DNA of 64,000 nucleotides from NCBI RefSeq assembly GCF_010091925.1, contig NZ_WVID01000001.1, positions 124,001 to 188,000 of the forward strand, in the 5' to 3' direction. The notes under the pieces were generated by a model. The model saw only the letters and a list, made by a program, of their open reading frames with translations. It did not search any database and was not told where the DNA came from. The translations under genes and the position numbers were made by a program. Source of the DNA: Nostoc sp. B(2019). GTDB taxonomy: Bacteria > Cyanobacteriota > Cyanobacteriia > Cyanobacteriales > Nostocaceae. Shown piece after piece: positions 52,908 to 57,890 of the stretch; within the stretch, counting starts at the first letter, position 1, and every line of letters starts with the position of its first letter.

Positions 52908-53103
52908 TATCACTGCGTTGGAATTCGTAATGACAGCTCCTACGGACGCTTGTTCCTCTCTACGAGATGCTGCTTTGTAGCTTGCTTCCCCGTAGGGGTA
53001 CGCTATCGCTAACGTAATTCCCATACCGCAAATGTTTCATTGATTAGGGCATCAAACAGGCAAAGTATAATTAACGTAGCCTCTAGCCATGTTGCATAGT
53101 TCT

Positions 53104-53391
53104 ATGACCCATCTTCTGACACTGGAACTGAACGATGAAATTTTCACCGCGATTCAGCGACAGGCTGAGGCGATTGGCGTTCCTCCTGAACGGCTAGCTG
53201 CAACGTTGCTAGAACAGCAGCTTGGACAAGTTTTTAAATTGTTGCTGTCTGAAGCAGAAAAGGAGACAGCACGAGCCAGATTTGAAAGCCATTTTGGGGC
53301 GCTTAATCTCGAACATACTATTGATCTAAATAATGAGAGTATTGATGCAGATTTGGTGAGAGAGTATGCCAGTAACCACGAGGAGGGTTAG
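53104..53391 (+). CDS. Antitoxin of a VapBC-like module
   Basis: 96 aa from ATG 53104 (53089 is the other start). The N-terminal part, LLTLELNDEIFTAIQRQAEAIGVPPERLAATLLEQQ, reads like a ribbon-helix-helix DNA-binding domain; the C-terminal acidic tail (ENLSIDADLVREYASNHEEG type) should bind and inhibit the toxin. The stop TAG overlaps the GTG start of the PIN-domain gene by one base, a usual layout for co-translated toxin-antitoxin operons. The family is not one I can name exactly. The pair is intact, unlike the ParDE-like locus at 9.2 kb. Confidence 0.8.
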   Translation: MTHLLTLELNDEIFTAIQRQAEAIGVPPERLAATLLEQQLGQVFKLLLSEAEKETARARFESHFGALNLEHTIDLNNESIDADLVREYASNHEEG

Positions 53392-53792
53392 TGATAATCG
53401 ATACTTCTGGGTTACTTTGTCTGCACTATCAGACTGAGCCTTTGCATACTGAAGCTTGTACTGCCTATAAGAGAGCAACAATCCGATTAACCCACAGCTA
53501 TGTCATTGCTGAGTACGTAGCGTTAGCCACTGCAAGGCGTTTTCCGCGTTCATCCGTCCTTGCTTTTGTGGTTGATTTGCTGGATAACCCAGACATAGAA
53601 ACAGTTTGGGTGGATGAGCCATTGCACCGAACAGCAGTCGATCTCCTAATGAAGCGGGAGGATAAAACCTACTCTCTATGTGATGCGTTGAGCTTTGTGC
53701 TAATGCGCCAGCGCGGGATTACAGAGGCATTGTCTACTGATCGGCATTTCGAGCAAGAAGGGTTTATCCGCTTACTGCGACCAGCAGTCTAA
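53391..53792 (+). CDS. PIN-domain toxin (VapC-like ribonuclease)
   Basis: 133 aa. VapC toxins are Mg-dependent RNases that cut tRNA or rRNA and stop translation. The acid residues are at MIIDTS (D4), SYVIAEYVAL (E41), SLCDALSF (D98 or so) and STDRHFEQ (last Asp). GTG start (53391) overlaps the antitoxin stop. The toxin is complete, so the module may work as a stabiliser of this region. Confidence 0.9.
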   Translation: MIIDTSGLLCLHYQTEPLHTEACTAYKRATIRLTHSYVIAEYVALATARRFPRSSVLAFVVDLLDNPDIETVWVDEPLHRTAVDLLMKREDKTYSLCDALSFVLMRQRGITEALSTDRHFEQEGFIRLLRPAV

Positions 53793-53827: not shown

Positions 53828-55033
53828 ATGGATTCCAATCTAGCGCTATGTGCAGCGATCGCTCACCAAATTACCACTAGTCCCCAACAGCGAATTACTT
53901 TTGCTGAATTCATGGACATGGCGCTATATCACCCTCAACACGGCTACTATTGCAGCGATGCAGTCAAAATTGGCTTTCAAGGTGGTGATTTTTTTACCTC
54001 TCCTAACCTTGGCGCTGACTTTGGCGAGTTGCTAGCAGAACAATTTTTCCAGATGTGGAAGATTTTAGAGCAACCTGTGCCGTTTTCTCTGGTAGAAATG
54101 GGAGCAGGTCAAGGAGTGTTGGCATTGCATATCCTCAAGCACTATCAGCTACACTACCCAGATTTTCTTACCGCTCTGGAGTACGTCATTGTCGAAAAAT
54201 CCCCAGCTTTAAGGCAAGAACAGCAGCAACGCTTGCAAGAGTTTCCGGTGCGTTGGTGCAATCTAGAAGATATATCACCTAACTCGATTACTGGCTGCTT
54301 TTTTTCTAATGAGTTAGTTGATGCTTTACCAGTGCATCAATTCAGCTTAGAGACTGGGGAACTGCGAGAGATTTATGTAACAACGCAAGCAGATAAGGGA
54401 GATGAGGAAGTATTTTCTTCCCCTACCATGCCATCATTTGTGGAAGTCATAGGAGAACCTTCTACGCCCCAACTGGCTGAATATTTAGATTTTGTGGGAA
54501 TTAACTATGCTCAAAGTATTTATCCAGATGGCTACCGTAGCGAAATTAATTTAGCTGCTCTGGATTGGTTGAGTATAGTAGCCGACCGCTTGCAACGTGG
54601 CTATGTGTTAACAATTGATTATGGCTATCCTGCCAGTCGTTACTACAATCCTAGGCGATCGCAAGGAACATTACAGTGTTACTATCACCATCGTTTCCAT
54701 GACAATTCCTACATTCATATTGGGCGACAAGACATTACATCCCACGTTGATTTTACAGCTTTGGAAAGCTGGGGTGAACGGTGCGGTTTAGATAAAGTTG
54801 GTTTTACCCAGCAGGCTTTATTTTTGATGGCGTTGGGTTTAGGCGATCGCATTGCTGCCATCTCCTACCAAAACCAACCTCTCTCAAAGTTATTACGGCG
54901 GCGGGACGCACTACATCAGCTTCTAGATTCCACAGGATTGGGCGGCTTTGGAGTCCTAGTTCAGAGCAAAGGTCTAGTAGAGACAGAAACTTCTCAACCA
55001 CTCAAAGGATTAACTTTCCCAGAGCCAGCGTAA
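53828..55033 (+). CDS. SAM-dependent methyltransferase, MidA/NDUFAF7 family
   Basis: 401 aa, class I SAM methyltransferase (DUF185/MidA family, whose mitochondrial member NDUFAF7 methylates an arginine of the complex I subunit NDUFS2). Motifs: ITFAEFMDMALYHPQHGYYCS, the SAM-binding LVEMGAGQGVLALHIL, YVIVEKSPALR (acidic residue for the ribose), and CFFSNELVDALPVHQF; later VLTIDYGYPASRYY and GDFFTSPNL. By analogy, the target could be a subunit of the NDH-1 complex, which cyanobacteria have; this is inference. ATG 53828. A 31-aa membrane peptide gene follows 103 bp downstream. Confidence 0.92.
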   Translation: MDSNLALCAAIAHQITTSPQQRITFAEFMDMALYHPQHGYYCSDAVKIGFQGGDFFTSPNLGADFGELLAEQFFQMWKILEQPVPFSLVEMGAGQGVLALHILKHYQLHYPDFLTALEYVIVEKSPALRQEQQQRLQEFPVRWCNLEDISPNSITGCFFSNELVDALPVHQFSLETGELREIYVTTQADKGDEEVFSSPTMPSFVEVIGEPSTPQLAEYLDFVGINYAQSIYPDGYRSEINLAALDWLSIVADRLQRGYVLTIDYGYPASRYYNPRRSQGTLQCYYHHRFHDNSYIHIGRQDITSHVDFTALESWGERCGLDKVGFTQQALFLMALGLGDRIAAISYQNQPLSKLLRRRDALHQLLDSTGLGGFGVLVQSKGLVETETSQPLKGLTFPEPA

Positions 55034-55340: not shown

Positions 55341-56219
55341 ATGAAGGTGGCATTTCTGGGAACTGGACTGATGGGACTACCAATGGCTCAAAGATTGTTA
55401 GCCGCAGATATACAGCTAGTTGCCTACAACCGCACCCCAGAAAAATTAGCACCACTGCAAGCAGCCGGCGCGGAAGTGGTGACACATCCTCGCCATGCCA
55501 TTCGTGCAGCTGAGTGCATTATTCTCATGCTCACTAATGCCTCAGCAATTTATCATGTCTTGCTTTCCGATACTGCTTGGCACACTCTGGAAGGGCGCAC
55601 TATTATCCAAATGGGAACAATTACACCCACAGAAAGCCAAGAAATCAGAGATGCAGTGGTTGCAGGTGGTGGTGAATATTTAGAAGCGCCTGTACTAGGG
55701 AGCATCCCAGAAGCACAAGCTGGCAAACTGATGGTGATGGTAGGTGCTGAGCCAGAACAATATCAAAGTCACTTGAAATTACTGCAACATTTCGGAGCAG
55801 AACCTTTACTTATAGGGCCAGTGGGAACTGCTGCGGCGCTCAAATTAGCACTAAATCAACTAATAGCTTCCTTAACAACTAGCTTTGCTCTCAGTCTCGC
55901 TTTCGTTCAGCGTCAGGGTGTCGATGTAGATGTGTTTATGCAGATATTGCGTGAGAGTTCACTTTATGCGCCTACATTTGACAAAAAGCTGCAACGGATG
56001 TTGACTGGTAATTATGCTAATCCCAATTTTCCGACAAAACATTTGCTAAAAGATACAGATTTGTTTATCTCGGAAGCAAAATCACGTGGATTGGATCTCA
56101 GCAGTATTAAAGGTGTGCGACAAATCTTGCAAACAGCAGTGAAGATGTCATTTGCTGATGCTGATTACTCATCACTATTTTCTATTGTTAAGGAATGGGG
56201 AGAATCGAGTGAGGAGTAA
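55341..56219 (+). CDS. Beta-hydroxyacid dehydrogenase, 3-hydroxyisobutyrate dehydrogenase family
   Basis: 292 aa NAD(P)-dependent oxidoreductase. Rossmann loop FLGTGLMGLPMAQRL, substrate loop GGGEYLEAPVLGSIPEAQAGKLMVMVGA, and the catalytic Lys in ALKLALNQLIASL. Related enzymes reduce succinic semialdehyde or glyoxylate (GLYR) and tartronate semialdehyde; in cyanobacteria the group often matches glyoxylate/succinic semialdehyde reductases. Specificity is not readable. ATG 55341 is preceded by AAAGGAACG. Last gene before the origin region, transcribed toward it. Confidence 0.9.
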   Translation: MKVAFLGTGLMGLPMAQRLLAADIQLVAYNRTPEKLAPLQAAGAEVVTHPRHAIRAAECIILMLTNASAIYHVLLSDTAWHTLEGRTIIQMGTITPTESQEIRDAVVAGGGEYLEAPVLGSIPEAQAGKLMVMVGAEPEQYQSHLKLLQHFGAEPLLIGPVGTAAALKLALNQLIASLTTSFALSLAFVQRQGVDVDVFMQILRESSLYAPTFDKKLQRMLTGNYANPNFPTKHLLKDTDLFISEAKSRGLDLSSIKGVRQILQTAVKMSFADADYSSLFSIVKEWGESSEE

Positions 56220-56385
56220 GCAATTCAAAAGCGATCGCCATCTATAATTGTTACAACTTTCGCATTGCTGTTGCAGGTAGTCCAAGAATTTGGCTGACTT
56301 GAGCGATCGCTATCCCAGATTGGAGTAAATTCTCTGCTACGTATAACAATTGCTTTAAGGCTTGTTTTGCTTTATTTTTTGGTAT

Positions 56386-56600
56386 CTTTAAGTAAAGTAT
56401 AAAAATTGATTAACTTTAACGCAGATTGTGGAAAAATCTGTGGAAAACTTTAGGGTTTTCGGGGAAAACTTAATTAAGTATAATTACCCTGTGGAAAACA
56501 TCAGGGGTTTTTCCACAAGTTTTCCACAGATAGTTATTTACTTAACCATCTGTTAAACAGACTTGTGGCAGGTTTTCCACAAATTCCACAGTTACTACTA
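56386..56600. other. oriC: Chromosome replication origin (oriC) with six perfect DnaA boxes
   Basis: Six perfect 9-mers TTTTCCACA occur within 155 bp: minus-strand orientation at 56427-56435, 56439-56447 and 56490-56498, plus-strand at 56509-56517, 56520-56528 and 56573-56581. A near match AATTCCACA follows at 56582-56590. The boxes are arranged symmetrically, three facing one way then three the other. An AT-rich stretch (56386-56425) to the left and another near 56467-56487 are candidate unwinding elements. dnaN begins 140 bp downstream. In Synechococcus elongatus the origin likewise lies next to dnaN, so this is very probably the chromosomal oriC. Confidence 0.92.
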
Positions 56601-56729
56601 TGTAAATAGAAAATATCATTTTAGTAGTAGTTCGGCAGTCAGTAAAGATACCGCTGGTAAACTGGACTGTCACCACTCGCGTATAAACAACAAGGGTGCT
56701 AGTATATCCTTCACCAGCTGAATCTGACT

Positions 56730-57890
56730 ATGAAATTAGTTTGCGCCCAAAGCGATCTCAGTACAAATCTCTCACTCGTTAGCCGTGCTGTACCGTCACG
56801 ACCAACTCATCCGGTACTTGCCAATGTGCTGCTCCAAGCGGATGCTCAAACTAACCAGGTAAGCTTAACAGCCTTTGATCTCAGCTTGGGTATCCGCACC
56901 AGCTTTAACGCTGAGGTATGGCAAGGTGGAGCGATCGCCCTTCCTGCTAAATTGCTTGTAGACATCACCTCTCGTCTTCCAGAAGGAGAAATCACTCTAG
57001 ACGATGAATCAGCCCTCACAGGTGCAACAGGTGGTGAAGGTTTAATTGTCACACTCACGCCGAAAAGTGGACATTATCAGGTGCGGGCAATGGGGCCTGA
57101 AGAATTTCCCGAATTGCCTGTAATCGAAAATGCTGAAGCACTACATATCCCCGCGGCTGCATTAATTGAGGGATTACGGGGTTCATTATTTGCTACGAGT
57201 GCAGATGAAACCAAACAAGTACTCACTGGAGTCCATTTAACAGTTAAACAAGATACTCTGGAATTCGCTGCTACTGATGGACATCGCTTAGCAGTAGTAG
57301 AAACGACTAACGAGCGTCCTCTGGACGAAAGTAGTCAACTAGAAGTCACAGTACCAGCTAGAGCATTACGTGAACTACAACGAATGTTAGCTCACATCTC
57401 CTCATCAGATGAACCTATAGCTTTACATTTCGATCAAGGTCAAGTTGTGTTTTCCTGGCAAAATCAACGCTTGACTAGTCGTACATTAGAAGGGCAATAT
57501 CCTGCTTATCGACAACTGATTCCACGTCAATTTGAGCGAGAAGTGACAATTGAGCGGCGACAATTCATCAGCACTTTAGAGCGAATTGCGGTGCTAGCCG
57601 ATCAGAAAAATAATATTGTGAAACTCAGCATTGACGGCGATGCTCAGGAAATCACTTTGTCTTGTGAGGCTCAAGATGTGGGTAGTGGTAGAGAGTCAAT
57701 GCCAGCACAGATTTCTGGGCAGAATATAGAAATTGCTTTTAACATCAAGTATCTGATGGAAGGCTTGAAAGAGTTACCATCTTCTGAAATTCAAATGCAT
57801 CTGAATCAAAGTCTGACTCCAGTGATTTTTACCCCACTGGGGGGGTTGAAAATGACCTATTTAGCCATGCCTGTACAGATTCGTACTTAA
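56730..57890 (+). CDS. dnaN: DNA polymerase III sliding clamp beta subunit
   Basis: Ring-shaped clamp that keeps the replicative polymerase on DNA. 386 aa, with three clamp domains: MKLVCAQSDLSTNLSLVSRAVPSRPTHPVLANVLL (1-120), middle part VLTGVHLTVKQDTLEFAATDGHRLAVVE (120-250) and YPAYRQLIPRQFEREVTIERRQFISTLERIAVLAD (260-386). The C-terminal YLAMPVQIR is the usual end. Located directly next to the DnaA-box cluster, as expected for dnaN. The dnaA gene is not in this window, as in other cyanobacteria where the two are apart. Confidence 0.98.
   Translation: MKLVCAQSDLSTNLSLVSRAVPSRPTHPVLANVLLQADAQTNQVSLTAFDLSLGIRTSFNAEVWQGGAIALPAKLLVDITSRLPEGEITLDDESALTGATGGEGLIVTLTPKSGHYQVRAMGPEEFPELPVIENAEALHIPAAALIEGLRGSLFATSADETKQVLTGVHLTVKQDTLEFAATDGHRLAVVETTNERPLDESSQLEVTVPARALRELQRMLAHISSSDEPIALHFDQGQVVFSWQNQRLTSRTLEGQYPAYRQLIPRQFEREVTIERRQFISTLERIAVLADQKNNIVKLSIDGDAQEITLSCEAQDVGSGRESMPAQISGQNIEIAFNIKYLMEGLKELPSSEIQMHLNQSLTPVIFTPLGGLKMTYLAMPVQIRT

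Follow-up and report, generated by a model that had tools for sequence, protein, structure and literature searches.

We consider it fairly probable that the cluster of DnaA boxes beside dnaN in the window (the whole 64-kb stretch of DNA analyzed here) is an ancestral DnaA-box oriC that was left by dnaN after dnaA had been separated from it. According to this reading, the right-hand module of the origin has decayed, and opening would occur mainly on the left, perhaps conditionally. Overall, the locus looks like a structurally intact DnaA-binding oriC in which the opening module appears to have been rewired. The reading draws on direct observations, namely the sequence of the cluster, its uniqueness, its conservation, its synteny, its co-occurrence with dnaA, and a change in the side on which the least stable DNA is located. 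As far as our searches reach, this family-level remodelling of the opening module has not been described so far.

This pattern provides a concrete sequence hypothesis for why some cyanobacteria can dispense with DnaA, an initiator that is otherwise essential. The boxes are retained in genomes that retain dnaA, the DnaA-trios are eroded, and an AT-rich element is fixed on the opposite side, a combination open to testing in Nostoc PCC 7120 and Synechococcus elongatus. The results also call for caution when dnaN adjacency or GC skew is used to place origins in heterocyst-forming cyanobacteria.

Composition and Rarity of the Box Cluster

The features of the locus are collected in Table 1. The sequence-only reading had described six perfect boxes within 155 bp, three on the minus strand followed by three on the plus strand, and this description is exact (56427–56581). 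The single near match that it mentioned is AATTCCACA at 56582–56590. No other perfect TTTTCCACA is present in the 64-kb window. The claim that such a density is not due to chance was also borne out, as none of 100 dinucleotide shuffles of the whole window reached six boxes (mean 1.21, largest 5). At the shuffle rate, the Poisson probability of finding six boxes in a given 155 bp is about 9e-19.

Table 1. Features of the box cluster and its surroundings (positions in the window)
Feature	Position	Strand	Remarks
3-Hydroxyisobutyrate dehydrogenase-type reductase, left of breakpoint	55341–56219	+	matches below curated cut-offs
Left AT-rich element TTAAGNNNNGTATAAAAANNNATTAA, proposed Nostocaceae unwinding element	56388–56413	+	family pattern match
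Perfect DnaA box TTTTCCACA	56427–56435	-	exact match; invariant in 5 genus genomes
Perfect DnaA box TTTTCCACA	56439–56447	-	exact match; invariant in 5 genus genomes
Conserved GTATAATTAC adjoining central boxes	56478–56487	+	exact in 22/30 named Nostocaceae loci
Perfect DnaA box TTTTCCACA, central dyad left half	56490–56498	-	exact match; class core; invariant in genus
Perfect DnaA box TTTTCCACA, central dyad right half	56509–56517	+	exact match; class core; invariant in genus
Perfect DnaA box TTTTCCACA	56520–56528	+	exact match; class core; invariant in genus
Perfect DnaA box TTTTCCACA, first of right tandem pair	56573–56581	+	exact match; invariant in genus
Degenerate DnaA box AATTCCACA, second of tandem pair	56582–56590	+	abuts last perfect box
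Weakened DnaA-trio run TTA-CTA-CTA	56592–56600	+	relaxed trio rule
AT-rich spacer behind trios, putative right-hand unwinding region of ancestral module	56601–56621		
Inverted trio copy TAGTAGTAG	56622–56630	-	behind AT spacer
dnaN, beta clamp of DNA polymerase III	56730–57890	+	TIGR00663, 344 bits

The window is located on contig C21 (402.9 kb) of a 7.43-Mb draft genome with 109 contigs. Of the 11 perfect boxes counted in 400 kb of this contig, six are those of the cluster. Same-facing box pairs no more than 30 bp apart occur twice in the genome, both times inside the cluster, and yield no control matches. Among the criteria for an oriC were a dense box cluster, adjoining AT-rich and easily opened DNA, and adjacency to dnaN and/or dnaA. 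The cluster is the only dense group of TTTTCCACA in the genome, and easily opened AT-rich DNA, as computed from sequence, adjoins its boxes. The AT-rich flanks noted previously were found at 56388–56413 and 56601–56621. That description was correct in that the flanks exist, but it missed both the distinctive conserved left element and the erosion of the trios on the right.

The oriC known from Anabaena/Nostoc PCC 7120 and from symbiotic Nostoc shares the box sequence and number, with six TTTTCCACA as well (PMC4674748, PMC5987646). There, the origin is placed by dnaA and/or dnaN, whereas the present cluster adjoins dnaN and has its dnaA on a different contig. The relevant passages of these two accounts make no mention of a left element or of trio erosion. 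The oriC of S. elongatus also consists of TTTTCCACA boxes (PMC4674748).

Conservation of the Core and Co-occurrence with dnaA

A three-box core is shared across the class: 123 of 388 genomes contain a left-facing box, 8–13 bases, a right-facing box, 1–4 bases, and a further right-facing box, and the reversed control matches none. The window's genome contains one copy. The central left-to-right box span was obtained by the rule used at 26 of 29 loci and is exactly 39 bp in 21 of these 26. Among five genomes of the genus, none of the 54 box columns varies, compared with 18 of the 101 non-box columns between the boxes. The corresponding values are 21/100 in 56630–56729 and 26/300 at the start of dnaN. 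Two further sequence similarities were observed near the center. In some other families the palindromic GGTATTTATACC is seen, and AAGTATAA is common to GTATAATTAC and the left AT-rich element.

The Anabaena/Nostoc oriC was reportedly described by Zhou et al. in 2011, as cited in PMC4674748 and PMC5987646. The window's genome encodes a full-length DnaA with the Walker motifs and the GGKDHTTV box-binding signature. Alignment with solved DnaA structures covers its GGVGLGKTH, DDIQF, SRF, and GGKDHTTV stretches.

The presence of dnaA and of the box pair was surveyed in 40 genomes and in a further set of 16, hand-picked mostly because they are without the core, with one genome (G017) in both sets. 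A box pair anywhere in the genome accompanies an intact dnaA in 44 of 45 genomes (34/34 and 10/11, the exception being G275), is found in one of eight genomes without any dnaA (G039), and is kept in both genomes with a dnaA pseudogene (G018 and G447); related genomes in these counts are not independent. Six of the eight genomes surveyed in genus g40 have dnaA and the box pair, and two (G385 and G394) have neither. In these two Nostocaceae the loss of dnaA is possibly recent; the assembly of G394 comprises 1110 contigs.

Binding of DnaA to the boxes is suggested by their sequence, by the binding in PCC 7120 cited in PMC4674748, and by the co-occurrence with dnaA. The uniqueness of the cluster, its class-wide core, the adjacency of dnaN, and the co-loss with dnaA support, on sequence grounds, its assignment as a cyanobacterial oriC module.

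Separation of dnaA from the Cluster

The distance to dnaN, given previously as about 140 bp, was confirmed, since the gene starts 148 bases past the last perfect box and 139 past the near match. It was likewise correct that dnaA is not nearby. The gene is located on another contig (G000:C23:81624-82946), and the adjacency expected of an oriC is thus found for dnaN and not for dnaA. The 4.3-kb dnaA locus has no perfect boxes and three scattered one-mismatch sites. Among the matches listed, the closest relatives of the DnaN protein (97–99%) are those of Nostoc sp. MG11, Komarekiella atlantica, an aff. Roholtiella strain, and Komarekiella delphini-convector. These names point to Nostocaceae as the family and to a genus in which some strains are called Komarekiella.

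The common gene order is dnaA–cluster–dnaN. In a sample of 24 family genomes (the window's own and 23 relatives), all three are together in 14, one of which has a dnaA pseudogene. In five genomes, which all belong to this genus, the cluster is beside dnaN and dnaA lies elsewhere, and in four, from four genera, the cluster is beside dnaA and dnaN lies elsewhere. In the remaining genome, G017, neither dnaA, the cluster, nor dnaN was found. Where dnaA is included in the locus (24 of 80 named loci), the densest box group begins 41–197 bp past dnaA in all 24.

On the left of the cluster, the gene at 53828–55033, which looks like a methyltransferase and matches no NCBIfam model, and the reductase (Table 1) adjoin dnaN in 4 of the 80 named loci, all of this genus. 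On the right, an ArsA-like gene is found in 47 of 80. Because the left genes are restricted to the genus while the ArsA-like gene is widespread, the breakpoint can be placed between 56219 and the cluster. The position beside dnaN is therefore a leftover of a genus-specific breakpoint, on the left of the cluster, that parted it from dnaA.

The earlier use of dnaN adjacency to recognize the origin is valid here insofar as dnaN does adjoin the cluster, but it is not a rule of the family: in the nine genomes where the order is broken, the cluster remained with dnaN in five and with dnaA in four. Published predictions place the origin beside dnaN in 55 of 68 cyanobacterial species (PMC4674748). In Nostoc punctiforme, dnaA, dnaN, and the box cluster are all apart, and six boxes downstream of dnaA have already been published for a lichen Nostoc (PMC5987646). 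By our comparison, dnaN adjacency is not a reliable marker of the origin in Nostocaceae.

As contig C21 comes from a draft genome in which it is not assigned to a replicon, the cluster might belong to a plasmid or a secondary chromosome instead of the main chromosome. We regard this as very improbable and rejected it from the synteny, as the main dnaN adjoins, the chromosomal neighbors are common to relatives, an identical layout is present on megabase contigs in G008, G013, and G021, and there is a single copy per genome.

Erosion of the Right-Hand DnaA-Trio Module

The opening of many bacterial origins is attributed to the assembly of DnaA from tandem boxes onto DnaA-trios (3'-GAT-5'), and unwinding of the box-trio module of S. 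elongatus by its own DnaA has been reconstituted in vitro (PMC8287927). The trios are weak in the present locus. A basal unwinding system should contain tandem boxes, the upstream one being closer to the consensus, and three or more DnaA-trios no farther than 16 bp from a box. Both parts can be recognized, as TTTTCCACA is followed by AATTCCACA at 56573–56590 and then by TTA-CTA-CTA, a weak form of the trios. Together with the AT-rich stretch, the resemblance covers 56573–56621. In contrast to that system, the second box is degenerate (TTTTCCACA or NTTTCCACA is present at this position in class relatives), the trios vary in the genus and are absent from most of the family, and an extra conserved AT-rich element is located on the opposite side.

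The strict pattern, a box followed by CTACTACTA, was scored per genome and not per place, and was found in 167 of 388 class genomes (13 control matches in 12 genomes). It occurs in 159 of 326 genomes outside the order, in 5 of 38 order members outside the family, and in 3 of 24 in the family. The matches of the family genomes G235, G242, and G255 and of the order members G196, G368, and G373 are not at box clusters. Among core-bearing genomes outside the order, the strict pattern is present in 80 of 99, a comparison from which f38 (seven core-bearing genomes with TTATCCACA boxes) was excluded. Inspection of 18 of the remaining 19 revealed that 13 follow the relaxed rule and that five have trios that appear, by eye, interrupted or variant. 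The nineteenth, G168, has CTACTATCTACTACTA, again a variant or interrupted run of trios. The assumption that strict negatives are without trios was dropped, since all 18 inspected show variant or interrupted trios, and for the same reason the strict value of 80/99 understates the class.

The relaxed rule is passed by 3 of 44 distinct core-bearing Nostocaceae loci, with a mean of 0.05 and a maximum of 1 for shuffled tails. The window's genome and one sibling pass it weakly, making two of the five genus genomes, and G013 passes with five perfect trios.

These counts bear on a conventional right-hand origin, in which 56573–56600 would still function as a basal unwinding system, with the left element as a secondary or regulatory site. 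Three trios located 11 bp past a perfect box are consistent with it, as are the five perfect trios retained in G013 and the near-invariance within the genus of the AT spacer (1 of 17 columns variable) and the inverted trios (0 of 13, 56617–56629). However, the trio tract itself varies in the genus (7 of 20 columns, 56582–56601), few genus and family genomes pass even the relaxed rule, and the least stable DNA at the locus of the window's genome is on the left. We therefore consider such an origin unlikely.

Mirrored trios were considered as a class-wide feature and rejected. TAGTAG was found in the next 60 bases at 5 of 82 loci (shuffle mean 1.9, maximum 7), in a test of 90 trio-selected loci from which eight with fewer than two nearby boxes were left out. 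The full mirrored-trio pattern occurs in 27 of 388 genomes versus 6 forward and 3 reverse control matches, and we retained inverted trios as a trait of a few lineages, among which is this genus. An inverted copy is also present at L023, L144, L150, L154, and L162, in a few distant lineages. When single-stranded, the inverted copy can pair with the trios (z -2.1).

Searches of open-licence papers found no DnaA-trio analysis applied to Nostoc and, among the matches listed, no title on a DNA unwinding element in Anabaena/Nostoc.

The Left AT-Rich Element and a Proposed Opening Mechanism

The left element lies in a conserved block at approximately 56382–56420 and is the sole match in the window when up to three mismatches are allowed. 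On the left of the leftmost left-facing box, the Nostocaceae consensus is approximately AATATTAAGTAAAGTATAAAAATTGATTAAATTTAA, with 1.18 bits/position versus 0.21 in the left flank, a figure inflated by the anchoring of the 41 rows on part of the motif. A strict degenerate pattern for the element has a single match in each of 49 family genomes out of 145 and none in the control, and is missing from the other 96. Each of the 30 fetched copies is followed on its right by three or more DnaA boxes within 260 bp, and the first perfect box starts 13 bp from the element in 25 of them. A looser form within 200 bp on the left of the core is present at 37 of 45 Nostocaceae loci, compared with 2 of 44 other class loci, and is missing from eight of the Nostocaceae clusters. 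Three order members examined from outside the family differ from each other, G343 having the element and no trios, G348 trios and no element, and G324 neither. Within the genus, the sibling G002 has lost the element, and this loss accounts for most of the 14 variable columns among the 41 of 56386–56426.

The side of the least stable DNA changes as well. In nearest-neighbour calculations, 38 of 44 Nostocaceae loci have their least stable 35-bp segment to the left of the core, whereas 35 of 43 other class loci, which had been picked through trio patterns, have it on the right. The segment is also on the right in all 17 strict-trio-negative loci. At the cluster of the window, the least stable DNA is at about 56400, inside the left element. 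The six Nostocaceae loci with this segment on the right include the sibling G004 and G013. The conservation, spacing, and stability of the element suggest opening on the left side.

In the E. coli oriC, AT-rich repeats are located by the DnaA-box array, and dnaA is elsewhere. The present locus resembles it in having an AT-rich element by a box array and an origin apart from dnaA, and appears to differ in array layout.

We propose that a rearrangement parted dnaA from the locus, while the ancestral oriC stayed by dnaN. DnaA made elsewhere would bind the symmetric array, made up of a central dyad flanked by arms that face left and right. In the majority of other cyanobacteria, the right tandem boxes would load DnaA onto the trios, causing the AT-rich DNA behind them to open. 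In Nostocaceae, this right-hand module would have decayed, partly so in the window's genome, and a lineage-specific AT-rich element lies beyond the left-facing boxes, usually 13 bp off. Opening, when it occurs here, may therefore take place mainly on the left.

A further-reaching version is conceivable but rather doubtful. Nostocaceae might have swapped the opening mechanism altogether, the trios having decayed while a new left element took over, opened by DnaA without the help of trios or by another initiator. Such a switch would underlie the relaxed dependence on DnaA, and the window's genome and G013, which hold both modules, would be intermediates.

Possible Use of the Cluster as a Replication Start

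A cumulative GC-skew minimum at the cluster had been proposed as a check; none was found in 400 kb of the draft contig. Around the cluster, GC skew is weakly opposite in sign (+0.017 on the left, -0.020 on the right, 20 kb). The closest complete relative, sampled as 60 pieces of 20 kb over 6.53 Mb, has no V (permutation p 0.49), and neither has the control G095 (p 0.23). A second control, G050, has a shallow V (p 0.03), and its cluster, at 1.816 Mb, borders the low plateau of 1.82–2.21 Mb. Skew is a weak method of location and was used just for the absence of a visible minimum.

An irregular skew has been reported for most cyanobacteria (PMC7198777), and the missing minimum is therefore not disqualifying. 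The skew of Anabaena sp. WA102 is weak (PMC4907049), and that of PCC 7120 is irregular in one passage of PMC7198777 and V-shaped in another. S. elongatus, in contrast to the present case, has a regular skew, and it requires DnaA (PMC7198777). The earlier statement that its origin adjoins dnaN agrees with the same source.

Nostoc PCC 7120 reportedly grows without dnaA and replicates from multiple origins (PMC7198777), and the deletion of dnaA in this strain has been repeated (PMC7283527). Because dnaA is dispensable in the model strain of the family, it is unwarranted to regard the cluster as the sole or required origin, and the site probably acts conditionally or as one start among several. 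The original description as a likely chromosomal origin thus stands for the oriC module and not for a sole or required start. Its origin activity is putative.

The same dispensability and multiple starts, together with the missing skew minimum and the eroded trios, would also fit a relict or regulatory site, whose boxes titrate DnaA or control the transcription of dnaN or other genes while DnaA-independent replication starts elsewhere. Several observations make this rather unlikely. The whole array and the left element are kept where dnaN has moved away (G005, G007, and G019), and control of dnaN therefore fails to explain the array. A scan of the + strand of 56100–56900 found no sigma-70-like promoter, and the AT-rich element fixed by the boxes resembles an unwinding element. 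Because of the same + strand scan, GTATAATTAC and the left element were rejected as promoter candidates. An ancestral oriC with left-side opening remains our preferred explanation.

Additional Observations

Outside the window, the genome has a second, diverged dnaN (G000:C20:31252-32409, - strand), whose product shares 39% identity with the DnaN of the window. Comparable second copies were also listed for G001, G004, G006, G008, G009, G022, and G025. In G017, a member of the Nostocaceae (3.8 Mb, one contig, 99% complete), searches by protein, TIGR00663, and PF02767 gave no dnaN, and no dnaA was above the cut-off. A missing beta clamp would be remarkable, but gaps in the searched sequence may explain it. 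Within the window, two small adjoining genes at 53089–53792 (100 and 133 aa) appear, by eye, toxin-antitoxin-like with a PIN-like protein.
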